From: Pedobacter lusitanus
Lineage (GTDB): Bacteria > Bacteroidota > Bacteroidia > Sphingobacteriales > Sphingobacteriaceae
NCBI RefSeq assembly: GCF_040026395.1
Contig: NZ_CP157278.1
Location: 62,001 to 126,000, forward strand
Reading direction: 5' to 3'
DNA length: 64,000 nucleotides
Shown here: positions 12,382 through 28,300 of the stretch, piece after piece
Numbering within the stretch: position 1 is the stretch's first letter
How the letters are laid out: each line of letters begins with the position of its first letter
Made by a program: the position numbers and the translations under genes
The notes under the pieces: generated by a model
Seen by the model: only the letters and a program-made list of their open reading frames with translations
Told to the model about the DNA's origin: nothing
The model's database searches: none

Positions 12382-14790
12382 ATGTTGAAATTTGTTCAAA
12401 CTGTATGCTTTCTTTTCGTTTTTTATAGTGCTTCTGCCCAGATATCTGTCAGAGGCAAAGTGACAGATGAAAAAAAGATGCCGGTTGAATTAGTTGTTGT
12501 CAGTCTTCAGCAGGGTACATCGGTAATAGGCAATGCCATTACGGACAGTCTGGGCAATTATCAGTTTAAAAACATGACCAGGGGGAATTATAAATTCCTG
12601 TTTAAGTACGTAGCCTATAAGGATTCAGCAATTGCTGCGAATATTAATACAGACACACTGATCAATGTACAGTTTAAGAATATTCAGAGTTTAAAGGGAA
12701 TTGTTGTACGTGCCAGGAAACCAATTTTTGAAAGAGAAATAGATCGCCTTCGTTTTAATGTGGCAGAGACTGATCTTGTCTTTGGGAATAATATATGGGA
12801 CGTCATGGAAAAAACGCCCCTGGTAAATGTTTCATCTGATGGTACAATTCAAATCAGTGGCACTTCAGGAGCTATTGTGTACATGAATAATAAGAGAAAA
12901 GTACTTTCTGGTAATGCCTTAAAAAACTATTTAAGCAGTATTCCGTCAGATAATCTGCAGGCCATCGAAGTGATCACTACTCCCTCCAGTAAGTATGATG
13001 CAGAGGGAGGAGCCGGCATCATTAACATTATTACAAAAAAGAACAAGGAAGAAGGTCTTGTTGGGAATGCAGTATTGAGTACCAGACAAACAGCTGTTAA
13101 TTCAGAAGCGGGAAGCGTTTACCTCAATAACCGAAAGGGAAAATGGAATGTCTTCTCTGATCTGTATATGAGTAACAAAAGCAGAAAGCCTGAATTAAAA
13201 AAAGATATATACTATCCGCCCGGATCTCCTGAAGGCCTGCTGCACAGAAGTGTTAATTCGTTTAATGATTATCAGGATTTATCTCCTGGAGGAAACCTGG
13301 GGATTGATCATCAGATTAATGCTGATCATGTGGTTGGACTCTTATTTGATTATTCCGGTAACTGGCATAAAGAAACACGCAATGCTTTCAGACGCGATTA
13401 TTTCAATCATGCTGACTCTCTCAGCCTGACTAATAATAAGGATAAGCTGAGTTCACAAACCTATTCGCTGAACTTAAATTATCAGGGTAAACTTGATTCT
13501 TCGGGTAAACAAATCAGTATTGATTTTGATGCTTTGGAATACAGATCGAAGAATAATTCAGTGAGCAGGACTGACGCACTGGATCTGACCAACAATCAAT
13601 CTTTGTTTGTTGAAGACTGGTTTAGAAGCTCATCTCCGCAGCGTATTAGCAACCAGTCACTTAAAGTTGATTTTGAATGGCCGGTTAATCCAAAAACATC
13701 TCTTGATTTTGGCGCAAAGGCTTCTTTTTCAAAAATCAATAATGATCTGCTTTTTGAGGATCGGGTAGCTGAAGATAGCTGGATAAAAGATCCTAAAACA
13801 AGTAACCTTTTCAAATATGATGAGAATATAAATTCCCTATATGGTATTCTGAATCATAAAATAAATACCAGATGGGCCTATCAGCTCGGTTTGCGTATGG
13901 AGAATACAATTGCAAAAGGCTGGCTTGAAGGAGTAAAGGCAGTAGACAGGAATTATACTAATTTCTTTCCAACCGCTTTCCTGAAATATACAACGGCTAA
14001 AGAAAAAACATTTGTTCTGGCTGTCTCCAGCAGAATAACGCGGCCAAGCTTCTGGGATGTTAATCCATTCAGAACCTACACAACTGATCAGACTTATTTT
14101 GAAGGAAATCCCTTTTTATTGCCTTCAAAATATTACAGACAGGAGTTGAGTCATACTTTTAAAAATAAGACAGGTACTTATTCTATTCAGTTGGCTGCCA
14201 GTCAATTGTTGGATGAGTTTTATGCGCTTCCCTATAATCCTGCAGCAAATATTATTGTGAATAAAAAAGTGAATTATGGTAATAAATATGCTTTTTCAAA
14301 TTCAATAACTTATTATAATCAGCTGCTTCCGTGGTGGAGACTATCAGGATCAACTCTTTTAGGTTATGTTGTCTCAAAAGGCTCCTATGCCAGTGACGTT
14401 GTCATCGACAACAGGTCTTTTCTTTTTAGTGTTACAACTAATCAGACATTTAATATTTCTAAAAAGAGCGGTCTTAGCTGTACTGTTATAGCCAATAATA
14501 CTTTCCCCGTTACCATCGTGAATACTGAAATCGGAAACCGGCTTGAAACAGAAGTCCGGTTAAGAAAATCAATCGGTGCCTGGAATATTACACTATCAGG
14601 CCAGGATTTTTTTAAGAGTAACAAGGATAGATATAAAGTAATGTTAAATGAGCTCAGGATTATGGATCAGAACTATTATGATACCCGTAGTGTGGCCCTT
14701 TCAGTGAGCTTTAGTTTTGGGAAATCTACTGTAAAAGATAAAAGAGACAGAGATGTGGGATATGAGGATCTCAAACAAAGAACCATGTAG
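12382..14790 (+). CDS. Outer-membrane beta-barrel protein with CarboxypepD_reg domain
   Basis: 802 aa with a signal peptide (ends ...YSASAQ) and an N-terminal CarboxypepD_reg-like beta-sandwich (about 22-100). A plug-like domain follows (about 110-215, with IEVITTPSSKYDAEGGAGIINI), then a long OMP_b-brl_3-type barrel with SSRITRPSFWDVNPF. This is the TonB-receptor-like outer_membrane_family class, shorter than SusC. It stands 122 bp before the precursor gene and has a paralogue of nearly equal length at 22606-25008. An outer-membrane step (export, import or immunity) for the peptide is inferred from position only. Confidence 0.85.
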   Translation: MLKFVQTVCFLFVFYSASAQISVRGKVTDEKKMPVELVVVSLQQGTSVIGNAITDSLGNYQFKNMTRGNYKFLFKYVAYKDSAIAANINTDTLINVQFKNIQSLKGIVVRARKPIFEREIDRLRFNVAETDLVFGNNIWDVMEKTPLVNVSSDGTIQISGTSGAIVYMNNKRKVLSGNALKNYLSSIPSDNLQAIEVITTPSSKYDAEGGAGIINIITKKNKEEGLVGNAVLSTRQTAVNSEAGSVYLNNRKGKWNVFSDLYMSNKSRKPELKKDIYYPPGSPEGLLHRSVNSFNDYQDLSPGGNLGIDHQINADHVVGLLFDYSGNWHKETRNAFRRDYFNHADSLSLTNNKDKLSSQTYSLNLNYQGKLDSSGKQISIDFDALEYRSKNNSVSRTDALDLTNNQSLFVEDWFRSSSPQRISNQSLKVDFEWPVNPKTSLDFGAKASFSKINNDLLFEDRVAEDSWIKDPKTSNLFKYDENINSLYGILNHKINTRWAYQLGLRMENTIAKGWLEGVKAVDRNYTNFFPTAFLKYTTAKEKTFVLAVSSRITRPSFWDVNPFRTYTTDQTYFEGNPFLLPSKYYRQELSHTFKNKTGTYSIQLAASQLLDEFYALPYNPAANIIVNKKVNYGNKYAFSNSITYYNQLLPWWRLSGSTLLGYVVSKGSYASDVVIDNRSFLFSVTTNQTFNISKKSGLSCTVIANNTFPVTIVNTEIGNRLETEVRLRKSIGAWNITLSGQDFFKSNKDRYKVMLNELRIMDQNYYDTRSVALSVSFSFGKSTVKDKRDRDVGYEDLKQRTM

Positions 14791-14912
14791 TTTGAATTCA
14801 ATGTTATGCTGAATAGTTGTATTCACTTGTTTCATTATTAACTAAATATAGATGAAAGGGCAGTTGCCATGTCCTTACTGATGGCTTTTTCTCAACCTAA
14901 AACCAAATTTCC

Positions 14913-15122
14913 ATGAAAAAAAATGCAAACATCGCATCAAATTCTGAGCAAAAAAGTATCCTGAATGATGCTGTAAACTCTTCAGAAAATGAACAATTAG
15001 ATCTTTACAAAGCCATTTTTGGTGGAGTAAGTGCTGGCTGCTCAGTTGTTGCAGTTAGTAATTTGCGTTCGAAAGCATCTGCTTATGATAAGCATGATAC
15101 ATTCTTACAAGCAATCAGCTAA
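14913..15122 (+). CDS. Putative RiPP precursor peptide with Gly-Gly leader
   Basis: A 69-aa ORF placed exactly where a precursor is expected, 100 bp before the radical SAM maturase. The N-terminal 38 residues are polar and rich in Asn, Ser and Glu, with no signal peptide, and end in LYKAIFGG. The Gly37-Gly38 pair, with Ile at -4 and Tyr/Leu at -7/-8, fits cleavage by a C39 peptidase. The predicted 31-residue core runs from V39 to S69 and contains one Cys (C43). Its end can be read as three consecutive triplets, Y58-D-K, H61-D-T and F64-L-Q, the aromatic-X-X form cross-linked by three-residue cyclophane enzymes. No homologue is recognised; the assignment rests on context and motif. Confidence 0.75.
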   Translation: MKKNANIASNSEQKSILNDAVNSSENEQLDLYKAIFGGVSAGCSVVAVSNLRSKASAYDKHDTFLQAIS

Positions 15123-15132
15123 TTGATGCCTG

Positions 15133-15165
15133 CAGATAGCCGGTTATCAGATAACTGGCTATCTG
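15133..15165 (+). terminator. Strong hairpin between precursor and maturase genes
   Basis: A 15-bp stem, CAGATAGCCGGTTAT pairing with ATAACTGGCTATCTG (one G-U wobble), with a CAG loop, begins 10 bases after the precursor stop and is followed by TATTTTA. The T-run is short, so it probably acts as a leaky terminator or 3' mRNA stabiliser. That would let the precursor be made in excess over the enzymes. Confidence 0.75.
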
Positions 15166-15222
15166 TATTTTATGGATAACAACAACAAAACATTATTGAA
15201 ATAACCTGAGCTCTGTTTAACG

Positions 15223-16488
15223 ATGGAAAAAGTAACCTCTTATGTGCTTAAGATTGCCAGCCGCTGCAATCTGAATTGTTCGTATTGTTATATGTACAAT
15301 TTAGGAGATCAAACCTACCTGAAGCAACCTAAATTCATGTCACTGGAAACGGTAACAGTATTAGCTGAGCGTTTAAAATCATACTGTAAAAATGCCGGTA
15401 TTGATTATGTGCAGATTGTTTTTCATGGAGGTGAACCACTCTTATTGAGCAAAGAATATTTTAAGACCTGTATTAATCTCTTCAGAGAGACTTCACCCGA
15501 AATTGAATTTGGTTTTACGATTCAAACCAACGGTGTAACAATTGATAAAGAGTGGTATGATTTATTTAAAGCTAATAATGTTGGGATAGGAATCAGTATT
15601 GACGGCCCTAAAAAATATCATGACGAATTTCGTGTATTCCATAATGGAAAGGGCTCCTATAATCAGGTCGCAAAAGCAGTAAAATTAGGCGGGGACAACG
15701 GTTTATTAGGTATACTCATGGTGATGAATACGGGGATCCCGACTTCCGAGTTTTATCAGGAGTTGAAAGACCTTAAAATTGGTAATTTAAATTTATTGTT
15801 GCCAGATGGTCATTATGATAAACTTCCGGATGGATTTGATACAGCCAGATTTGGTGATGACGATTATACACCTTATGCGGACTGGCTGATTGAACTTTTT
15901 CAGATCTGGAAAAGTGATAAGCAAAGACCTACTATAAGATTTTTTGAAACCCTGATTGAAATGATTGCAGGAGAAGAAAATATAGGCAATCAGGCTTTCG
16001 GGAAAAAGAAAAATGGGGTGGTGGTTATAGAGACAGATGGTGGAATTGAAGTGGTAGATTCTTTAAGAGCCTGTTATGAAGGTATTACCAGGAATGAGCT
16101 CAATATCCACAAGAATCAGATAGAGGATCTTTTTCAGGATAATATTTTCGAGGTTTATTATAATGCGCATGATATGGTTTGTGAAAAATGTCTGAACTGT
16201 CCGGTTTACGATTTTTGCGGAGGTGGATTCCTGGGCAGCAGATATGCTAACCATAACGGTTTTGATAATCCAACCATTTACTGCAAGGATATTATCAGAA
16301 TTTTGAGTTTCATACAAAATGATATTCTTGATAGTCTTCCCGCCGAAGTTACCAACAGGATGGGGGTCGAAAAACTTTCCTACGAAGAACTTCTTCAGGA
16401 AATAGAGAAACCTGCTCTGATTCAAATAGATAATGAGGTTAAGCAAAAACTAATTTCTTTTAAACAGCCTGACATCGTATGCACTTAA
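15223..16488 (+). CDS. Radical SAM/SPASM peptide maturase, cyclophane-former-like
   Basis: 421 aa. The radical SAM cluster motif is C15-x3-C19-x2-C22 within VLKIASRCNLNCSYCYMYNL, followed by FHGGEP (67-72) and SIDGP (125-129). A C-terminal SPASM region binds two further Fe-S clusters through C284, C320, C323, C326, C332 and C354. The opening, the KFMS element and the ETDGGIEVVDSL stretch before C284 are what I recall of FxsB/GrrM-type enzymes that join an aromatic side chain to the beta carbon two residues later. No RiPP recognition element is obvious. Its stop overlaps the next gene by 10 bp, indicating coupling. Confidence 0.88.
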   Translation: MEKVTSYVLKIASRCNLNCSYCYMYNLGDQTYLKQPKFMSLETVTVLAERLKSYCKNAGIDYVQIVFHGGEPLLLSKEYFKTCINLFRETSPEIEFGFTIQTNGVTIDKEWYDLFKANNVGIGISIDGPKKYHDEFRVFHNGKGSYNQVAKAVKLGGDNGLLGILMVMNTGIPTSEFYQELKDLKIGNLNLLLPDGHYDKLPDGFDTARFGDDDYTPYADWLIELFQIWKSDKQRPTIRFFETLIEMIAGEENIGNQAFGKKKNGVVVIETDGGIEVVDSLRACYEGITRNELNIHKNQIEDLFQDNIFEVYYNAHDMVCEKCLNCPVYDFCGGGFLGSRYANHNGFDNPTIYCKDIIRILSFIQNDILDSLPAEVTNRMGVEKLSYEELLQEIEKPALIQIDNEVKQKLISFKQPDIVCT

Positions 16489-17315
16489 AAAGAGGAATTC
16501 ATATTTATAGTGATCTGCCTGGTATTGATGAACAATTATCTATTAATAACGGAACGATGCCAGCCACCATCGAAACGGGATTAAACTATCATACCGGTTC
16601 GTACATCCCCAAACGGGAATGGCGTAAACTGGAACATGCTGAGAAGAAGTTGTTAATTACAGATAAGAAAAACACAGATTTTCGCAAAAGCATATATGTA
16701 GGTGATATACCTCAGCATTTAAAAGACGCTTTCCGTGCAATGGGCTTACATGATTGTACGCAGCTGGATCAGGTATACCCTAAAATGAAAGAGGATGAGG
16801 AAGCTGTGAAAACAATCAATAAGGATCTGGATATTTTTCTGCGCCCTTTTTCCACGGCTAAAAACTACAAATTTCACCGGATTACAAGGGCAATGCCTAA
16901 CCGGGAAACCATAACCTGTCATTATATCGACGAAGAATTTATTTATATAGGCCTGCATATTGATCAGAGCAAACGTTTCACTCCCCATACTGCACATCAA
17001 TCCGGAAACCGGATCTCTATTAATCTGAGTAAAGAAACCCGGTATCTTGCTTTTACCAATCTTTCCCTGATACAGGTGTTTAATATGGTTAAGGAAAAAA
17101 TAAACCTTACTGATACTGACGTTAATCCGGATAATATAGCCTACTTGTTTTTTAAGCATTATCCTGATTATCCGGCTATCAGAGTTGATTTGAAGCCCTA
17201 TCAATATTACGTTGCACCTACGGATAACTTTTTTCATGATGCGACTACCCTTGGTAATAAGGAAATAGATATTACCATAGTATATACAGGGATCTTTGAT
17301 ATGGCTATGCTATAA
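16479..17315 (+). CDS. Putative iron-dependent oxygenase-like RiPP protein, paralogue 1
   Basis: 278 aa with no signal peptide; start ATG 16479 overlaps the maturase stop. It shares with the next two genes the blocks YVGDIP (73-78), HID (160-162), GNRISINLSKETR (176-188) and PYQYYVAPTDN-FFHD (240-254). The HxD at 160-162 and a distal His at 253, with a conserved Lys eight residues further on, resemble the Fe(II)/2-oxoglutarate dioxygenase facial triad. It is the most divergent copy: HID replaces HND, and FFHDATT replaces CFHDGST. No family is recognised with confidence; oxidation of the peptide after cross-linking is the inference. Confidence 0.6.
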   Translation: MHLKRGIHIYSDLPGIDEQLSINNGTMPATIETGLNYHTGSYIPKREWRKLEHAEKKLLITDKKNTDFRKSIYVGDIPQHLKDAFRAMGLHDCTQLDQVYPKMKEDEEAVKTINKDLDIFLRPFSTAKNYKFHRITRAMPNRETITCHYIDEEFIYIGLHIDQSKRFTPHTAHQSGNRISINLSKETRYLAFTNLSLIQVFNMVKEKINLTDTDVNPDNIAYLFFKHYPDYPAIRVDLKPYQYYVAPTDNFFHDATTLGNKEIDITIVYTGIFDMAML

Positions 17316-17326
17316 ATATTGTAGAT

Positions 17327-18205
17327 ATGAAGATAAAGAAGGGTATTATGCTGCATAATCAATCATTAGAAGGAAATGATTGTATTTCTATTAATTCGGG
17401 AGTAATTCACTATACAAAGCAGGATATAAAGAAGATCAATTACCAGGATCTTTCATTTTTACCGTCTTATGAAGAGGATGCTTTTATTCCGGAAAGAAGC
17501 TGGAGAACATTAAGTAATCAGGAAATTAAGACCTTGAAATCAACTGATAAACGCAGTGATTCCAATACAATCTATATCGGGGATATTCCTGAAAACCTGA
17601 AGACTTTGTTCCAAAAACTGGATTTAGGGCACTGTAAAAACCGGAATGATGTCTTTGACAGATTTAAGAAAAATCCGGACTTAACTTTAGAGATTAACAA
17701 GATTACGGAAGAGTTTTTGAAATCTAAATCGGATGAGAAACCTTTTCGTTTTCACTATCTGGGAACTAATCTTCCAAATCTGGAGGTCGTAGCCAGTGAT
17801 ACCACTGTATTACCTGCGGATCACGCTGAACAGGATAAAAAGTATATGGGTATCCATAATGACGGGACAAAATTTGTGTCTCCGCATGCTTTGTATAAGC
17901 TGGGAAACCGGCTTACAATCAATCTTGGAAAAGAAACACGGTCTTTTTTATTTGTAAATCTGACCATGACGCAGGCTTTGAATATGCTTAAACAAAAGGT
18001 AGATGTAACCAAATATCAGATTGATATTATTAATATCTCTAAATATTTCTTTAAGTATTTTCCGGATTATCCCGTCATTAAAATAGATCAGAAACCATAT
18101 CAATATTATATCGCTCCAACAGATAACTGTTTTCACGATGGTTCCACGTTAGGGATGAAAGAGCTGGATATTATTATCGTTTATTTCGGGGCATTCAGAT
18201 TTTAA
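17327..18205 (+). CDS. Putative iron-dependent oxygenase-like RiPP protein, paralogue 2
   Basis: 292 aa, 11 bp after paralogue 1. The conserved blocks are RSWR (57-60), YIGDIP (83-88), HYLGTNLPNLE (143-153), YMGIHNDGT (173-181, HxD at 177/179), GNRLTINLGKETRSFLFVNL (193-212), FPDYPVIK (245-252) and KPYQYYIAPTDNCFHDGST (256-274, distal His 270). It is clearly closer to paralogue 3 than to paralogue 1. The 91-residue HxD-to-His spacing and the absence of membrane segments fit a soluble double-stranded beta-helix oxygenase. A cupin or other metal enzyme is possible. Confidence 0.6.
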   Translation: MKIKKGIMLHNQSLEGNDCISINSGVIHYTKQDIKKINYQDLSFLPSYEEDAFIPERSWRTLSNQEIKTLKSTDKRSDSNTIYIGDIPENLKTLFQKLDLGHCKNRNDVFDRFKKNPDLTLEINKITEEFLKSKSDEKPFRFHYLGTNLPNLEVVASDTTVLPADHAEQDKKYMGIHNDGTKFVSPHALYKLGNRLTINLGKETRSFLFVNLTMTQALNMLKQKVDVTKYQIDIINISKYFFKYFPDYPVIKIDQKPYQYYIAPTDNCFHDGSTLGMKELDIIIVYFGAFRF

Positions 18206-18242
18206 ACAGAAAGGATTAAGAAAAACTATATTATTTGATAGC

Positions 18243-19121
18243 ATGAGACTAAAAAAGGGTATTTTAATACATAATCAAATGCAGCAGGGTTATGATGCTG
18301 TAAGTATAAATTCCGGAACAGTACTTCATACCGGGCAGATTACTGAACCTGTTAATTTTAATGGGGTGGTGTACACGCCGCAGTATGAGGATCATGCCTA
18401 TGTTGCTAAAAGAGACTGGAGGAGCTTAGATCCTGCAGAGATGGGATGTTTGCGGGCGAAAGAGAGACGGAATGATTATAATACTGTATATCTGGGTGAT
18501 ATTCCTGAAGCATTAAAAGAGAATTTTAAAAAAATAAACCTGGCCGGGTCTAAAAACAGGGAGGAAGTATTTACAAAATTTTCGGGTGATGCAGAGCTGA
18601 CAAAAGAGTTGAGCACAAACTTAAATTCGTTTTTAAAGCCACTTGCCGATGATAAGCCGTTTAATTTCCACTGTATAGGTACAACATTGCCAAATATAGA
18701 AATGCTTGCCTGTAATACGACTAAACTGCCTTCCGGTTTTAAGCCGCAGGATATCAGGTATATGGGGATGCATAATGATGGAACACAGGAAATGACTATC
18801 CACACCGCTCATCAATTCGGAAACCGTATTTCCATTAACCTGGGGAATGATACGCGGTCATTTTTATTTGTAAATCTGTCCATGATACAGGCTTTAAATA
18901 TGATAGCAAAGAAAATCGGTGTCGAAAAGAACAAGGTTAATATTGCTAATATCCCGAAGTTCTTTTTTGAGCATTTTCCTGATTATCCGGTAATCCGGGT
19001 GCAGCAAAAACCTTATCAGTATTATATTGCGCCAACGGATAATTGTTTCCATGATGGTTCTACTTTAGGCAATAAACAGCTGGATATTACAATGGTTTAT
19101 TTTGGGGCTTTCCGATGCTGA
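18243..19121 (+). CDS. Putative iron-dependent oxygenase-like RiPP protein, paralogue 3
   Basis: 292 aa, 37 bp after paralogue 2. It has the same architecture: HND at 177-179, GNRISINLGNDTRSFLFVNL (193-212), and APTDNCFHDGST with His270 and K278. Its last codons overlap the exporter start in an ATGCTGA arrangement, so translation of exporter and enzyme is coupled. The copies differ mostly before residue 140 and in the linker 220-240, the likely substrate-contacting parts. This suggests either different target residues on one precursor or a multimer; neither can be decided from sequence. Confidence 0.6.
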   Translation: MRLKKGILIHNQMQQGYDAVSINSGTVLHTGQITEPVNFNGVVYTPQYEDHAYVAKRDWRSLDPAEMGCLRAKERRNDYNTVYLGDIPEALKENFKKINLAGSKNREEVFTKFSGDAELTKELSTNLNSFLKPLADDKPFNFHCIGTTLPNIEMLACNTTKLPSGFKPQDIRYMGMHNDGTQEMTIHTAHQFGNRISINLGNDTRSFLFVNLSMIQALNMIAKKIGVEKNKVNIANIPKFFFEHFPDYPVIRVQQKPYQYYIAPTDNCFHDGSTLGNKQLDITMVYFGAFRC

Positions 19122-21298
19122 AATTTTACAAGTATCCCTTTCAGAAACAATTAGACCTGATGGACTGTGGTCCGGCTTGTTTAAAAATGATTTCTGAATA
19201 TTATAAAATAAATACCAGTATATCAGAATTAAGAGAACTGTGTAATACATCCCGTCTGGGCAGTAACATAGGGGATATTATGTACGGTGCTGAACAAATA
19301 GGGTTTAAGGCTCTGGTGTTCAAAACCACTATAGACTATCTCAAAAATAATCATCCGTTTCCATGTATTATTCACTGGAGAAAAAATCACTATGTTGTTT
19401 TGTATAAGATTAAGGATGGCAAATATACGATAGGGGATCCGGCCTATGGTTTTGCTACTTTATCTGAGAAAGAATTTATTGATGGATGGTCAGATAATGG
19501 CGAAAAAGGGATTGCATTATTTGTTGAGCCTGACCTGGAAAGTACTTATACGACCGAAGCTGTAAATGGCAAAAGTGTATTGCAGCAATTTGCAGATTTT
19601 CTGAGACCACATGCAAAGCAAATCGGTGTTCTTTTGCTGGTTATTGTGATTGCCAGTTTTATTTCTCTGCTTATCCCCAGAACTATTGAATACATGACAG
19701 ATAAGGGAGTAGAGAAAAAAGATATAGGTATTATATGGAAAGTACTGTTATTCCAGTTTGTATTGTTCGGAAGTTTAACTTTCACCAATTATATCAGGAG
19801 TTTAATTCAGGCAAAGCTGAGTACCAAATTAAGTATAGGTATTATATCTGATTTTCTGGTAAAACTACTGATGCTGCCAATCTCATTTTTTGATTCAAAG
19901 AATCATGCAGATATTTATCAGCGAATAGATGATCACTCCAGAATTGAAACATTCTTATCCACCAAACTGGTATCTTTTATCTTTTCCGTATCACTTCTGA
20001 TCGTGTACATCTTACAGATCTTCTGGTTTGATAAATACATTGTATTAAGCTTTTTATTATTTACCGTTTTATCATTTGTGTGGTTTTTTCTGTTTATGGA
20101 CAGAAGAAAAAGACTGGATTACCGCAGATTCGGACTGGCTATCGAAGAAAGACATTATCTGAACGATTTGATTTCAGGAATGACTGAGATTAAACTGAAT
20201 AATGCTCAGGCAGGCAGGGTAGGGAGCTGGCAGGAACTGCAGCATAAACTGTATGATTTTAAATTAAGTAATCTGAAGCTTTCTCAGCTTCAGCAAAATG
20301 GTATAAATACCGTTAACCAGCTTAAAAGTATTTTTATAACTTTTCTTTGTTCCTATTGGGTAATTAACGGAACTATCACCTTTGGTGTTATGCTTAGTAT
20401 AGGCTATATCGTTGGTCAGCTAACTATACCGCTGCAGGAGATTATGAATTTTTTTCACGATTATCAGGATGCAAAAACTTCTTTCGAGCGGTTAAATGAG
20501 ATACAGTTAAAGACCAATGAGAATGACCAGGGGAAAATCAGCTTTCCGGGTAAATTAAACAGAGGCTTTGACATACATAATCTTTCTTTTAAATACTCGG
20601 GGATTCATAATCCCTATGTACTTCGCGGAATCAATCTCTTTATTCCAAAGGGTGGCATTACTGCAATAGTGGGAACAAGTGGCAGTGGCAAAACGACTTT
20701 AATGAAATTATTGTTGTCATTTTATCAGCCTCAGGATGGAAGTATCTTAATTGATGACGTCAATTTGAAAGCGATTAATACTGATGAACTAAGGAGTCAG
20801 TGCGGGGTGGTTATGCAGGATGGATATGTCTATAGTTCCTCGATTGCTCAGAATATAGCCATGGACGATAAGAATGTTGATCTTGACAGGGTTTATCAGG
20901 CACTTAGAATTGCTTGTCTTGATGATTTTGTTGATTCACTTCCGCAAAAGCATAATACTGCACTGGGCAGTACCGGAGTTGATTTGAGTGGTGGACAGAA
21001 ACAGCGTTTGTTTATTGCAAGAGCAGTTTATAAAAACCCTCAGATTATCTTTTTTGATGAGGCGACAAATTCTCTGGATTCAAATAATGAGCGGGCAATA
21101 ATGGATAATCTGGAACGGTTTTTTATCGGTAAAACTGTTCTGGTTATTGCGCACAGACTGAGCACAGTTAAAAATGCAGCTCAGATTGTGGTATTGGAAA
21201 AGGGAGAGATCGTGGAAGTTGGTTCTCATGCCGAACTTACGCGGAACAGAGGAAAATATTATGAACTGGTAAAGAATCAGCTGGAGCTTGGGCAATAA
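19115..21298 (+). CDS. C39 peptidase-containing ABC exporter (PCAT)
   Basis: 727 aa. An N-terminal C39 cysteine peptidase (1-130) has Q12, the catalytic C18 in MDCGPACL, H92 in NHYVVL and D108 in GDPAYG, so it looks active. An ABC transmembrane domain (about 165-450) follows, then a nucleotide-binding domain with Walker A GTSGSGKT (520-527), signature LSGGQKQR and Walker B IIFFDEA. Such transporters cut the leader after Gly-Gly and export the core across the inner membrane. This matches the GG site of the upstream precursor. It overlaps the preceding gene by 7 bp. Confidence 0.93.
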   Translation: MLKFYKYPFQKQLDLMDCGPACLKMISEYYKINTSISELRELCNTSRLGSNIGDIMYGAEQIGFKALVFKTTIDYLKNNHPFPCIIHWRKNHYVVLYKIKDGKYTIGDPAYGFATLSEKEFIDGWSDNGEKGIALFVEPDLESTYTTEAVNGKSVLQQFADFLRPHAKQIGVLLLVIVIASFISLLIPRTIEYMTDKGVEKKDIGIIWKVLLFQFVLFGSLTFTNYIRSLIQAKLSTKLSIGIISDFLVKLLMLPISFFDSKNHADIYQRIDDHSRIETFLSTKLVSFIFSVSLLIVYILQIFWFDKYIVLSFLLFTVLSFVWFFLFMDRRKRLDYRRFGLAIEERHYLNDLISGMTEIKLNNAQAGRVGSWQELQHKLYDFKLSNLKLSQLQQNGINTVNQLKSIFITFLCSYWVINGTITFGVMLSIGYIVGQLTIPLQEIMNFFHDYQDAKTSFERLNEIQLKTNENDQGKISFPGKLNRGFDIHNLSFKYSGIHNPYVLRGINLFIPKGGITAIVGTSGSGKTTLMKLLLSFYQPQDGSILIDDVNLKAINTDELRSQCGVVMQDGYVYSSSIAQNIAMDDKNVDLDRVYQALRIACLDDFVDSLPQKHNTALGSTGVDLSGGQKQRLFIARAVYKNPQIIFFDEATNSLDSNNERAIMDNLERFFIGKTVLVIAHRLSTVKNAAQIVVLEKGEIVEVGSHAELTRNRGKYYELVKNQLELGQ

Positions 21299-22522: not shown

Positions 22523-22605
22523 AACCGTACTCCTGATTCCCGATTACAGCACTTTCAGCTAAAAATTGATCTGGACTTTTGAAAGAAAGAACCAAATCAG
22601 CTGTT

Positions 22606-25008
22606 ATGTCCCGAATTTTTATCACTCTGTTTTCATTTATACTTTTAGCCGGAATCAATGTCTGTGCACAATCTGTAAACATTAAAGGAATTGTCATTGA
22701 CACGAATACCCGTAAAGGAATTGAGTTTGCTACTGTAACTTTACTTTCTGTTAAAGATTCGTTACCTGTTAAGAGCGTTTTTACTGATGCTTCCGGACGA
22801 TTTCAGCTGACCAGTGTACAAAATGGTACTTATCTGCTTTTAACTTCCTCACTGGAATATCACTGGAAATATCATGGGCCGCTGCAGATCAGTTCTGCCC
22901 GGCAGGAACTGGATCTTGGTCTGATACTTATGCAGGTCAATCAAAGAACTTTAAAAGGAGTAGAAGTCGTTGCACAGGTTCCTTTGTTTAGAAATCGGGC
23001 AAATGGAACAGTAGAAGTCAATGTGGCTAATACAATTCTGGCTACCAATACCACTGCGATAGAAATTTTATCTAAATCGCCCAATATTAATGTTACTGAA
23101 ACAGGGGTTTTTGTGCTTGGAAAAGGAGAAGCTATTATTTATTTAAACGGGCGAAGAATAACCACTGAACAGTTGTCTTCAATTTCTGCCTCGCAGATCA
23201 GAAAAATAGAGATCATTACAAATCCTTCATCAAAGTATGATGCAGAAGGTAAGTCAGTGATTAATGTCATCACAACTACAAATGCGGAAGAAGGTTATAA
23301 GGGAAGTTTCAGACAGGCATATACCAGATCAGATTTTAGCCCGCCAGGTGCGAATACCAATCTAGATGCAAATTTTAGAAGGGGTAAGCTATCCTTAACA
23401 GGGAATTATGGTTTATTACTGGGTAATACAAGAGAAATACTCAATACAACGAGATCAAGACTGAAGTCGACAGATCAGTTTCGTTCTGTACTGATGACCG
23501 ATTGGAACAGAAAGTATACTAATTTCTCTAATTATAATTTTGGCGGGCAATATGATCTTAATGAAAAGAGCTATTTTTCTGCTGAATACAGCGGCTCTTA
23601 TAATCATCTGGGAGGGAGTACCCAAAGTGAAAATGCTATAACTTCTACTGTCATGAGCGGACTTTTCAAGAGTAATACAGCCAATGATAATGTAACCAGA
23701 AATAACTCGGTTACGCTGAACTACAACAGGAATCCGGATAGTCTGGGGTCTGCGTTCTTTATTGGTGCGCAGTATGCAGGTTATGTGTCTGATACAGATG
23801 ATCATATAAGTGAAGATAACCTGGTTGACGAACAGGTCGCATTCAGAATTCTGAATAATAAGGCTGGTTATAAAATCAGACTGGCCAATGCACAGCTGGA
23901 TTATACAAAAGCTTTTGATTTAAATCACAAGCTGGACTTTGGCATGAAATACAGTTATGCCGCCAATAAATCATATTCAGATTTTTTTATAACTAAAAAT
24001 GATAATGTTTTTTTTCCTGATGGTACACAGTCAGCAGATTTTAAATATCAGGAAAATATTCCTGCAGTTTACCTGAACTTTAATGGTCAGATGAACGAAA
24101 AGATAAATTACGGTCTCGGCATAAGGAACGAATGGACCAGTTACAAACTGGAAACGAATGTTCAGGGATTGGAAAATATAAAGGACAGCTATTTTAATCT
24201 GTTTCCGAATGCTTTTATATCCATTAAGCCAGCCGATCAGACACTGTTCAGATTCTCTTATACTTCCAGGATAACCAGGCCAAGGTATCAGTCTTTAAAT
24301 CCTTCGGGTATTTATCAGGATGCCTATACCAGTATAGAAGGAAATCCTTATTTGAAGCCTGAAAAAACACATGCTTTTGAAGCCGGGCTATCGTATAAAG
24401 TATACAGTTTTAAAGTGGGCTATAATCATACAACAGACGCGATTTCTGGTGCCGCAATACAAGGTAAGGCAGAAAATACTTATGTATTAAAACCACTGAA
24501 TTTTGACAGACTGGATTCCTGGTTTATTTCTCTGTCTGTTCCATTTAACCGCGATTGGTGGACTTCAATGAATACAGTGGATATGACTTATAATAAGTAC
24601 ATGACCAGTGAATTTCTTTATGGTTTGAAAAGGAGCCGGCCGCAGTTGCATTTATATTCCGTAAATAGTTTTAAGATTGGAAATCTGTTCAGAATTCAGG
24701 CACTGGGCCGGTATACCGGAGATTTATATGATGGGATTTTTTACAGAAAAAATCAGATTTTAGTAGCTCTGGGGCTGGAGAAGGATTTTTTGAATAAAGC
24801 TTTAAGACTCAATTTTACAGCCAATGACATTTTTCGCAGAGACAGACCATCTGGTAGCTATGAAATTGGTGAGACTTATATCGAGTTTGCCAGGATGAAT
24901 AACAACAAGTATTATCGAATGACACTGAGCTATAATTTTGGCAGGTTGAAAAAAGTCACCTACTCGAATAAATCTACCGGACAGGACGAAAATAGCAGGG
25001 TTAGATAG
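22606..25008 (+). CDS. Outer-membrane beta-barrel protein with CarboxypepD_reg domain, second copy
   Basis: 800 aa from ATG 22606, where a good signal peptide begins (MSRIFITLFSFILLAGINVCAQ); a TTG at 22579 is less likely. The layout matches the 12382-14790 protein: carboxypeptidase-regulatory-like sandwich, plug (IEIITNPSSKYDAEGKSVINVI), and OMP_b-brl_3 barrel with SYTSRITRPRYQSLNPSG. The matching size and position on the far side of the RiPP genes suggest the two paralogues bracket one functional locus. It could serve as exporter, importer or self-protection. Confidence 0.82.
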   Translation: MSRIFITLFSFILLAGINVCAQSVNIKGIVIDTNTRKGIEFATVTLLSVKDSLPVKSVFTDASGRFQLTSVQNGTYLLLTSSLEYHWKYHGPLQISSARQELDLGLILMQVNQRTLKGVEVVAQVPLFRNRANGTVEVNVANTILATNTTAIEILSKSPNINVTETGVFVLGKGEAIIYLNGRRITTEQLSSISASQIRKIEIITNPSSKYDAEGKSVINVITTTNAEEGYKGSFRQAYTRSDFSPPGANTNLDANFRRGKLSLTGNYGLLLGNTREILNTTRSRLKSTDQFRSVLMTDWNRKYTNFSNYNFGGQYDLNEKSYFSAEYSGSYNHLGGSTQSENAITSTVMSGLFKSNTANDNVTRNNSVTLNYNRNPDSLGSAFFIGAQYAGYVSDTDDHISEDNLVDEQVAFRILNNKAGYKIRLANAQLDYTKAFDLNHKLDFGMKYSYAANKSYSDFFITKNDNVFFPDGTQSADFKYQENIPAVYLNFNGQMNEKINYGLGIRNEWTSYKLETNVQGLENIKDSYFNLFPNAFISIKPADQTLFRFSYTSRITRPRYQSLNPSGIYQDAYTSIEGNPYLKPEKTHAFEAGLSYKVYSFKVGYNHTTDAISGAAIQGKAENTYVLKPLNFDRLDSWFISLSVPFNRDWWTSMNTVDMTYNKYMTSEFLYGLKRSRPQLHLYSVNSFKIGNLFRIQALGRYTGDLYDGIFYRKNQILVALGLEKDFLNKALRLNFTANDIFRRDRPSGSYEIGETYIEFARMNNNKYYRMTLSYNFGRLKKVTYSNKSTGQDENSRVR

Positions 25009-25323: not shown

Positions 25324-28300
25324 ATGAAGTGTACTCTACCTTTCATTAAGGTTTGCTGCGCATTATTAATACTTCAGGGTATTTATAGCAATGCAGATGG
25401 CAAACCTCTCTCGCTGGTATCTGGTAATTTTAAGCGGATCAACCAGCCTCCAAAAACCTTAGCTATAGTTATTCAGGGTGTTGTCAAAGATGCTCAGGGA
25501 ATTCCTATTCCCGGCGTGACTATCTACGTCAAAGGAAGAAAAAATGCGATGACAAGCACAGATAGCAGCGGCTCTTTTAAAATCAGTGTAAATGAAAATG
25601 ATATCATTATTTTCAGAATGATTGGTTTTGTTGACAAGGAAGTTCCGGTAAATGGGAAAACAAACATTTCAGTTATCTTAAAAGAAGATAAGAATGACCT
25701 GAATGAAGTAATTGTTACCGGATACGGCAGTATTAACCGTAAAAAGACTACAGCTGCAATAGCCAGTATTACAAGTAAGGATATAGAAAACCTACCTGCG
25801 GCAAGTGTTGATGTACTTTTACAAGGAAAACTGCCAGGCGTAAACGTACAGAATTTTAGCGGGCAACCGGGGGTGAAAACTTCACTGGTTGTAAGGGGAA
25901 ATACAAAAATCCCGATGTCTTCGGCTAATTTTAATACAGATGATTTATATAGTAATCCATTATATGTAATAGATGGAATACCTATTGGTGATGATGAGAT
26001 CAGAGCTTTTGATGCTACCGGAACCAACTTTCTGGCCAGTCTGAATCCCAATGATGTAGAGTCTATTGATGTATTGAAAGATGCATCAGCAGCGGCTTTA
26101 TATGGATCCAGAGCAGCAAACGGTGTTATCCTGATTAAAACCAAAAGAGGTAAACTGGGGGTACCCAGAATAAGTTTTAATACTTACCATGGGTATACGC
26201 AAAAACCTAAGGAAGTGGCAACGTTAATCGGAGCTGCAGAGCGCAGACAGAAGATGGATCTGATTTATAATTACGGAACAGATCTGCAATTACGTAATCA
26301 GGTTCCGCAATTACTGACTGATAGTTTGAATCCCGCATTTAACAATAATAATGATTATCAGAATCTGTTTTATCAGTCTGGTGCGGTACAGAATTATGAT
26401 ATTTCTGTTTCAGGAGGGTCTGAGGCTGTCAATTATCGTATTGGTGCCGGTTTATATAATGAGAAAGGTGTAGTGATTAATACAGGGTACAAACGTTATT
26501 CTTTTAACAGTAACGTAGGGGTGAACATCAGTAAGAATCTGGAATTAATTACCAGTCTTCGTGCATCCAGTGGTAAACGTCTGGTAGGATCAGAGCAACC
26601 ATCTTATAATAATTACAGAAACCTGTTCAAGATCAATCCTGTTTCTATGCCATCTTCTTTGTTACAGCTTTCAGGAGTAGACCGGGATGCAGCACTTAAT
26701 CCATATTCTTATAAAAGAAATGATAACGTCAATAATGATCTGACTGGAAGTGGAGAACTGAGATTAACCTTTTTGAAAGACTTTAGAGTAAGCACACGTG
26801 CTGCCATAAGTTATTCTACTTCAAAACAGGATTATTCTTCTCCTTCTTTTTTACAGGATGACGGTTTGGCCTATTCAGAATCCATTTCTAATCTGAGACA
26901 GAAGTATATTCTGACCAATAACCTGGTATGGATAAAAACACTGGCTAAAAAACATAACATAACTGCAACTGCAGTTCAGGAGTTTGAGAGCAGAAGAAAT
27001 GAGTCAACTGATTTATATGGAAGTGGAGTGCCAAATGATAATATCAAAATTGTAAACGGTATCCCTAATGGAAAACTGTTTGGTTCTACTGACTTATCTA
27101 CTTATGCAAAACTTTCATATCTGGGGGCGATGCATTATGATTATGACGGAAAATATCTGATTGATGCTTCTTATCGTGCTGATGCTTCTTCCCGTTTTGG
27201 TAAGAACAATAAATGGGGTTATTTCCCTGCCGTATCAGTAGGATGGATGATTTCTAATGAAGAATTCATCAAGAAATTCAGTTGGGTTGACGAATTAAAA
27301 CTGAGAGCAAGCTGGGGCCGTGCGGGTGATGAGAGCAGTATCGGAGATAACTCACGTTATAATGCCTATACCTATGATGCAGGTTATCAGGGTGCCACAT
27401 CTACAAGTTATGGCGGAAAAACTGTTGTAATTCCTGATTACAGGGGGATTACAAATGATAATATTACCTGGCAGCGGTCTGATGAGCTGAATTTAGGACT
27501 TGACATGATCTTGTTCAAAAACAGATTGAATTTAACTGTTGATGCTTATACCAGAAACACTACCGGACAGATGTTAAGTATTACTATCCCGGAGTATTCA
27601 GGTTACCTGAACACATTTACCAATGCTGCAGGGGTTAGAAACTCAGGAGTTGAGATTAACCTGAGCGGAGTAGCTGTTAAAGCAAAGAATTTTGAATGGA
27701 GACCTTCACTTAATTTATCATTTAATAAAAATATGGTCACTGCACTGCCAAATGGGAACCGTGATTTGTATTATACAGATGGTAGTGGCAGAACTTCAGT
27801 TTATATTGTTGGCAAGCCTATCAATATGTACTATATGTATATCAATGATGGTGTAATTACTTCTACGAATGATCTTTTAGTTAATCCATATACTGGTGCG
27901 GTAGGCGCAACCAAATGGGGAACACTAAGATTAGGTTATCCAAAATGGCGTGATACCAACGGAGATTATTTTCTGTCTGACAATGCCGGACAGAACGATT
28001 TGACATTCTACGGAGATCCCAATCCTAAAGTAACCGGTGGTTTTACCAATTTCTTCAGGTATAAAGGCTTTTCAGTACAGATCTTAACCACTTTTACATT
28101 TGGTCGTACCATTGTGAACAACACACTGGCAAAAAGACTTTCTAATGGTTTGTTTTACGGAAATCCTGAAGATTTTGCCAAAGCTTCTATTTCTGATATC
28201 AGCAAGTATAATTACTGGCGTCAACCTGGCGATCAGACAACTTTCCCGGCTATAAATCCCTATATGGGCCTATATGCATGGCGTGCTTCGCAGAGTCTGT

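Follow-up and report, generated by a model that had tools for sequence, protein, structure and literature searches.

Known cyclophane systems and the window operon

The pairing of a cyclophane synthase with an alpha-ketoglutarate (αKG) oxygenase that acts on the cyclophane peptide is known from ChlB/ChlH, as described in PMC12636437, and such a pairing is therefore not new in itself. Here we describe an operon of Pedobacter lusitanus in which a cyclophane-type radical S-adenosylmethionine (SAM) enzyme is followed by three oxygenase paralogues. It lies in a 64 kb stretch of the 6.05 Mb single-contig genome (contig NZ_CP157278.1, positions 62,001 to 126,000), called the window throughout, where a first-pass annotation had noticed it as a candidate new pathway for a ribosomally synthesised and post-translationally modified peptide (RiPP). 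That observation is confirmed. With a probability of roughly 0.7, we read the locus as a triceptide-type RiPP operon whose product would carry two cyclophanes, be oxidised by three MicC-family enzymes, leave through a C39 exporter and be handled by a receptor-like protein.

Five described systems come close in different ways. In ChlB/ChlH, the likeness lies in the combination of cyclophane synthase and αKG oxygenase, and ChlB is the nearest solved sequence to our maturase (E 3.8e-58); their oxygenase, however, adopts a zincin-like HExxH fold and forms one fused protein with the maturase (PMC12636437), whereas the oxygenases here are separate HxD...H proteins in two to four copies. The YhhB triceptide system (3-CyFE; NF041707) supplies the best-scoring maturase model, and the link between Tyr C3 and Arg C-beta reported for YhhB (PMC11002830) fits the Tyr-x-[KR] motif of the cores described below, although the maturase here scores 334 of the 445 bits demanded and the comparison is by maturase and core motif only. 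MicC (PDB 9vkm), an αKG-dependent non-heme iron oxygenase, belongs to the same protein family as the paralogues but is distant from them; its entry shows that study of this family has begun, and the open-licence literature searched yielded neither its pathway nor its chemistry. The GrrM/OscB cyanobacterial triceptide loci include a Nostoc plasmid with grrM, a MicC-family oxygenase and a short open reading frame (ORF) with Trp-x-Asn/Asp motifs, but differ from our operon in maturase subfamily, in precursor and in having a single copy of the oxygenase family. Finally, an αKG dioxygenase that macrocyclises a RiPP through Cys and Tyr (Xia 2025) is comparable as far as the citing text in PMC12636437 describes it.

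No description of the operon was found in the open-licence literature; as far as that search reaches (subscription papers lay outside it), the operon, its two- to four-fold set of old paralogues, the link to a receptor-like gene and a 5′ element are new. The features of the window, all on the forward strand, are as follows.

12382–14790, +, TonB-dependent-receptor-like outer membrane protein, 802 aa, OMP_b-brl_3 with CarboxypepD_reg
14858–14885, +, 28-nt 5′ element, H-type-pseudoknot-like, GGGC-N4-GCCAU-GUCC-UUACUG-AUGGC
14913–15122, +, RiPP precursor, 69 aa, leader of 38 aa ending DLYKAIFGG, core of 31 aa
15039–15041, +, codon of the invariant core Cys (residue 43)
15084–15092, +, Tyr-Asp-Lys motif, predicted three-residue cyclophane 1 (from core motif conservation)
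15102–15110, +, Phe-Leu-Gln motif, predicted three-residue cyclophane 2 (likewise)
15131–15167, +, 17-bp hairpin between precursor and maturase, probable attenuator
15223–16488, +, radical SAM/SPASM maturase, 421 aa, PF04055
16479–17315, +, MicC-like Fe(II)/2-oxoglutarate oxygenase, paralogue 1, class 1, 278 aa, by match to PDB 9vkm
17327–18205, +, MicC-like oxygenase, paralogue 2, class 2, 292 aa, by AlphaFold2 model, Foldseek and 9vkm match
18243–19121, +, MicC-like oxygenase, paralogue 3, class 3, 292 aa, by identity to paralogue 2 and the same invariant residues
19115–21298, +, C39 peptidase-ABC exporter, 727 aa, PF03412, PF00664 and PF00005

The ORF coordinates bear out the gene types, overlaps and gaps first proposed: the maturase overlaps paralogue 1 by 10 bp, the paralogues are 11 and 37 bp apart, and paralogue 3 overlaps the exporter by 7 bp, with 100 bp between precursor and maturase. 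The proposal of a single operon also stands, except that the conserved unit begins, where that gene is present, at the receptor-like gene (window 12382) and not at the precursor.

Related loci were gathered via the paralogues and not via the precursor. Scanning genome contigs with a paralogue alignment gave 27 loci, whole-genome searches added L051 and L053, and the window completes a set of 30 (L052 repeats L009 and is uncounted; the precursors of L053 and L028 are identical). Because L006 begins at paralogue 1, 29 loci have upstream DNA (window, L007–L032, L051, L053). All 29 hold homologues of the precursor, as the first-pass annotation had predicted for a genuine one, together with maturase and paralogues, and always in the same order. 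Each gene tested, precursor included, has a ratio of nonsynonymous to synonymous substitution (dN/dS) of 0.03–0.21 in three pairs of related loci, the window not among them, dS being close to 1 or higher for many genes in these pairs. The shared order and the low dN/dS place the operon beyond chance. The expected co-occurrence of all gene types holds only in part, as the exporter is adjacent in just 9 of the 30 loci.

Genera named in the locus records are Chitinophaga, Niastella, Longitalea, Mucilaginibacter, Flavobacterium, Kordia, Aquimarina, Tenacibaculum and Chryseobacterium. Within this range the operon is rare and patchy: it occurs in 3 of 395 sampled Bacteroidota genomes, and 5 of 301 genomes of its own family have a match (own genome included in both counts), three of the five with just one distant homologue. 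A wider profile (A8) raised the phylum count to 4 of 395 by one marginal genome, G132 (E 5.5e-4 over 40 positions). Gene content, conservation, enzyme families, active-site residues and the age of most paralogue lineages were computed from these loci and genomes.

Maturase, precursor and oxygenase paralogues

The maturase matches PF04055 at 66.2 bits (cut-off 29.5), contains the motifs CNLNCSYC and CEKCLNCPVYDFCGG, and has both the CxxxCxxC motif and the C-terminal SPASM cysteines of radical SAM/SPASM enzymes. Its three best NCBIfam models, NF041707 YhhB (334 bits, cut-off 445 not reached), TIGR04269 FxsB (318.3 bits, cut-off 370 not reached) and XyeB (184.5 bits), are all named cyclophane-forming. 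By sequence score the enzyme thus appears close to YhhB and FxsB and, by the curators' rule, is a member of neither; the initial assignment to the cyclophane type is upheld by these models and by ChlB, with scores below both model cut-offs. Its one other match in its own genome is a distant radical SAM protein, 28% identical over 176 residues. Upstream of the maturase, a long hairpin of the 15131–15167 type recurs in the same gap in all 19 loci folded (19 of the 29). It is probably an attenuator, and would fit a partial terminator that keeps the precursor above the enzyme.

The 69-residue ORF is a real precursor. Its leader ends in IFGG and it recurs with maturase and paralogues in every locus with upstream DNA, in agreement with the first reading as a RiPP precursor with a Gly-Gly leader; its nearest named relative, 88% identical, is annotated in Pedobacter. 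We collected 57 precursor sequences, 29 from 27 loci (without L051 and L053) and 28 database proteins similar to the window precursor, which yielded 54 distinct cores. Exactly one Cys is present in each of the 54, and Trp in none. Tyr-[Asp/Asn]-[Lys/Arg] is found in 53 (YAS in the remaining one) and FL[QRKLM] likewise in 53 (FTQ in the remaining one), which gives these cores the aromatic-x-residue motifs of triceptides; the double Gly is kept in 49. This conservation partly reflects the choice of the set, as all cores were gathered by similarity.

Two correlations between core and enzymes are retained as ideas only. Pro follows the core Cys in 10 of 12 loci scored as having paralogue class 4 (at least one precursor with Cys-Pro) and in none of the other 17 loci with a precursor, where class 4 was scored from the tree in 11 loci and, for L051, which lies outside it, by kinship with L020. 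With one independent contrast on starred branches and three on all branches, contrasts are too few for a sign test of this link to reach significance, and the same applies to a link between class 2 and FLQ/FLK (one and two contrasts).

The three paralogues had been described as oxygenase-like members of an unfamiliar family. The first part is supported. All three window proteins have HxD (at residue 160, 177 and 177) and a distal FHD; H177, D179, R195, R205 and H270 (paralogue 2 numbering) are kept in all 82 paralogues of 28 loci, so that each has the HxD...H facial triad predicted to bind Fe(II), and H177, D179, R205 and H270 are also present in all 18 rows of a wider alignment, which includes two window sequences. 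The AlphaFold check proposed for the paralogues was carried out on paralogue 2: the AlphaFold2 model has a mean predicted local distance difference test (pLDDT) of 93.3, shows the double-stranded beta-helix fold of known Fe(II)/2-oxoglutarate (2OG) oxygenases and matches KdoO in Foldseek (E 2.2e-4, template modelling (TM) score 0.37). Homology to MicC (PDB 9vkm) is seen by profile (E 2e-78), with paralogue 1 by phmmer (E 9.9e-24) and with paralogue 2 (E 3e-19); paralogue 3 is assigned by its identity to paralogue 2 and the same invariant residues, the single-sequence PDB searches having been made with paralogues 1 and 2. The invariant HxD...H and Arg, the modelled fold and the MicC homology together support the prediction that the paralogues are Fe(II)/2OG oxygenases. 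HExxH is absent from the three window paralogues and occurs once among the 82, which sets them outside the αKG-HExxH type. As for unfamiliarity, neither Pfam nor NCBIfam has a family that the paralogues match, but a solved relative exists in MicC. Weak matches of single members to NCBIfam (best E 0.0042 to 0.34) and of family members to Pfam (best E 0.02 to 0.084) point to unrelated families and were taken as chance.

Identity to paralogue 1 is 40% for paralogue 2 and 44% for paralogue 3, and these two share 53%; the only three matches to paralogue 2 in its own genome are the three window paralogues. The triplication seen in the window is real, yet it is one state among several and an old one: 13 loci, all of them Chryseobacterium-type, have two copies, 7 have three and 10 have four. 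A tree built from 70 of the 82 sequences, without 12 that belong to six Chryseobacterium loci (L051 and L053 lie outside the set), places class 1 on one side of a 100/100 branch with all 22 of its rows, class 2 in a group of 14 rows from Chitinophagaceae and Flavobacteriaceae (support 95/96), and class 4 in a group of 12 rows (98/96). Class 3 forms two groups that do not join; the second enzyme of the Chryseobacterium loci and that of L020 stand apart on long branches whose placement the program calls unsure. The window has classes 1, 2 and 3; because its near relative L006 has all four, class 4 was probably lost in the window lineage. Residues fixed in one class only number one in class 1, two in class 4 and none in classes 2 and 3. 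Most paralogue lineages are thus old and positional, and the copies are kept by selection, which favours separate tasks without demonstrating them.

Receptor-like gene, 5′ element and exporter

The receptor-like gene at 12382–14790 matches Pfam PF14905 at 268 bits (cut-off 27), and a homologue of 51–68% identity lies directly upstream of the precursor in 14 other loci, giving 15 of the 29. It is absent from L015 and from all 13 Chryseobacterium-type loci. The protein has no Plug domain in Pfam at E 0.001. Its structural model is of low confidence (pLDDT 59.9; best Foldseek E 2.8e-13 with TM scores of just 0.15–0.42), and the 50 matches listed are, going by their names, TonB-dependent transporters. 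In L020 (3753–6909) and L051 (9551–12618) the receptor-like gene stands between two precursor genes, with the 5′ element only at the maturase-side precursor. Outside the conserved unit, the window holds a second OMP_b-brl_3 receptor-like gene downstream, at 22579–25008, which is 26% identical to the first; after it, at 25324, comes a TonB receptor with a Plug domain.

This neighbourhood raises the alternative that the peptide serves as a metallophore, or is some other cargo, imported through the adjacent receptor-like protein, and is not an antibiotic. Besides the upstream position of the gene and its place between two precursors, oxidised Asp or Tyr might bind a metal. TonB-type receptors are, however, numerous in Bacteroidota, 14 of the 29 loci lack the gene, and the conserved unit shows no metal-transport gene. 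We regard import of this kind as possible though doubtful; it would be compatible with the triceptide pathway.

The 28-nt element occurs once per locus in 16 of the 29 loci and in none of the 13 Chryseobacterium-type loci. It belongs to the precursor and not to the receptor-like gene, since L015 has the element without the receptor. Its hairpin, GYCAU/AUGRC, has GUCC in the loop, which is able to pair with the upstream GGGC; in the related loci L010 and L016 GGGC/GUCC is changed to GGGU/ACCC, and in the Kordia and Aquimarina loci the stem is altered on both sides. In an alignment (A7) of 15 of the 16 elements, with 14 distinct rows (L016 was left out, as its loop and joining strand differ by one base), 99.2% of cells are paired, a value that none of 500 shuffles reached; both-side change in 2 of 9 pairs was equalled in 34 shuffles, and further pair types were no higher than in shuffles (331 of 500). 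Over five measures, three lie above all 500 shuffles, one above all but 34, and one is unremarkable. About two independent covariation events back the structure. The fold energy (z -0.13) lends nothing to it; the fold used is unable to hold the loop pairing. We describe the element as a putative conserved pseudoknot-like structure in the 5′ leader of the precursor; a palindromic protein-binding site in the DNA is a rival reading.

The element is found at one place in its own genome. Its pattern without mismatch occurs only in G000 and G142 among the 395 genomes, both of which carry the operon; with up to two mismatches it occurs in 77, against about 42 for a reversed-pattern control. Rfam gave nothing above the gathering score, and the low-scoring matches SNORD5 and DLG2-AS1_2 were set aside as chance.

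The exporter has the C39 domain PF03412 (116 bits, cut-off 22), PF00664 and PF00005, with DCGPAC, Walker A and LSGGQ motifs, as first annotated; C39 fused to an ABC exporter, together with the Gly-Gly leader, marks it as a peptidase-containing ABC transporter (PCAT). A C39-ABC gene directly follows the last paralogue in the 9 loci mentioned and lies upstream of the receptor-like gene in L009, about 3 kb before the maturase; the examined stretches of the 20 other loci have none. A full-length C39-ABC protein is encoded in all 15 genomes searched of those 21, 43–45% identical at best, so that processing of the precursor in trans is possible where the adjacent exporter is missing. In the Chryseobacterium-type loci L021 (10892–12037), L025 (10873–12036) and L053 (9089–10243), the place after the last oxygenase, where the C39 exporter stands elsewhere, is taken by a gene for a secreted-looking protein, with an aspartyl-protease domain in L021 and counterparts alike by size and start in L025 and L053.

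Proposed pathway and the wider oxygenase family

In the triceptide pathway we propose, the precursor would be translated and its leader recognised, after which the maturase would close strained three-residue cyclophanes at Tyr58-Asp-Lys60 and Phe64-Leu-Gln66. The three MicC-family oxygenases, as old separate lineages, would then introduce oxidations at different sites of the cross-linked core, C-H hydroxylation being the likeliest reaction, although one of them may instead link the invariant Cys to Tyr. The C39 exporter would cleave after Gly-Gly and release the peptide, and the TonB-receptor-like protein would handle the product at the outer membrane, in its action, its uptake or self-recognition. 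We place the cyclophane before oxidation by analogy with an HExxH oxygenase whose hydroxylation requires the preinstalled cyclophane (PMC12636437). We infer every bond formed, the order of steps, the division of labour among the paralogues, and the roles of the receptor and the 5′ element.

A ring closed through the sulphur of the invariant core Cys is a serious rival. At least one paralogue would then be a macrocyclase forming an oxidative cross-link between that Cys and the conserved Tyr or another residue, with the others hydroxylating; every one of the 54 cores offers a single Cys and a conserved Tyr, and an αKG-dependent enzyme forming a RiPP Cys-Tyr cross-link has been reported (Xia 2025), though the citing text (PMC12636437) does not reveal its enzyme family. 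The Cys-Tyr spacing varies, however, being 15, 12, 18 and 19 residues in 34, 12, 5 and 3 cores respectively, and the same Tyr is the predicted cyclophane donor. We consider a macrocyclase among the paralogues unlikely, but well worth keeping in view. A bolder extension of the triceptide pathway would have the two to four ancient MicC-family lineages work as an assembly line on a peptide with two cyclophanes, every lineage acting at a site of its own and one or more of them closing a new ring via Cys, with a receptor ligand as product and an undescribed leader pseudoknot controlling synthesis; taken whole, this is speculative and rather improbable.

Redundant copies kept for dosage, all acting on one site, would suit the adjacency of the genes and the few class-specific fixed residues. 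Yet classes 1, 2 and 4 are ancient and occupy constant positions from family to family, each copy has a low dN/dS, and dosage copies would be expected to homogenise or vanish, so that we judge this very improbable. Formation of a Cys thioether of sactipeptide or ranthipeptide type by the maturase, which the invariant Cys might suggest, is the least probable of all, as the three best NCBIfam models are cyclophane-forming, the ranthipeptide maturase model PapB gives just 108.8 of 340 bits and the sulfatase-maturase models score in between.

The operon offers a compact conserved setting for testing, gene by gene, how duplicated RiPP oxygenases share their work, with natural two-, three- and four-enzyme versions working on cores that resemble one another. 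Through it, an oxygenase family that has no model in Pfam or NCBIfam becomes connected with cyclophane maturases of Bacteroidota and, on a single plasmid, of Cyanobacteria, so that the family can be used as a mining handle. Judged by the neighbours of homologues in L048, L049, L050 and the Nostoc plasmid, the family partners more than one type of cyclophane maturase, though not provably in every case.

L048 (823–13365), from the window genome's own family, is a different RiPP cluster. Its several short precursors resemble one another and have ESISGG leaders; beside them are a pair of YhhB-like maturases (345.2 and 358.7 bits, both under the cut-off) and a single, distant MicC-family oxygenase, along with a LanB-type dehydratase and a zinc-type dehydrogenase. 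L049 resembles it by BLAST, the domains having been checked in L048. In L050 (6472–9123), a GrrM/OscB-type maturase (363.9 bits, cut-off 310) lies between two related short ORFs, one with several Phe/Trp-x-Asn/Asp motifs, beside a single, distant MicC-family oxygenase. In a protein search with the wider alignment, named matches were all from Bacteroidota (120 of 159 matches listed, most of them unnamed). Two of 72,556 plasmid records contain an oxygenase homologue, from Streptomyces and Nostoc. For the Streptomyces plasmid, the gene table, which is incomplete, lists no radical SAM gene within 8 kb of the homologue. On the Nostoc plasmid (L068, 489–4441), a Phytanoyl-CoA dioxygenase-family gene and the short Trp-x-Asn/Asp ORF accompany grrM and the MicC-family oxygenase.

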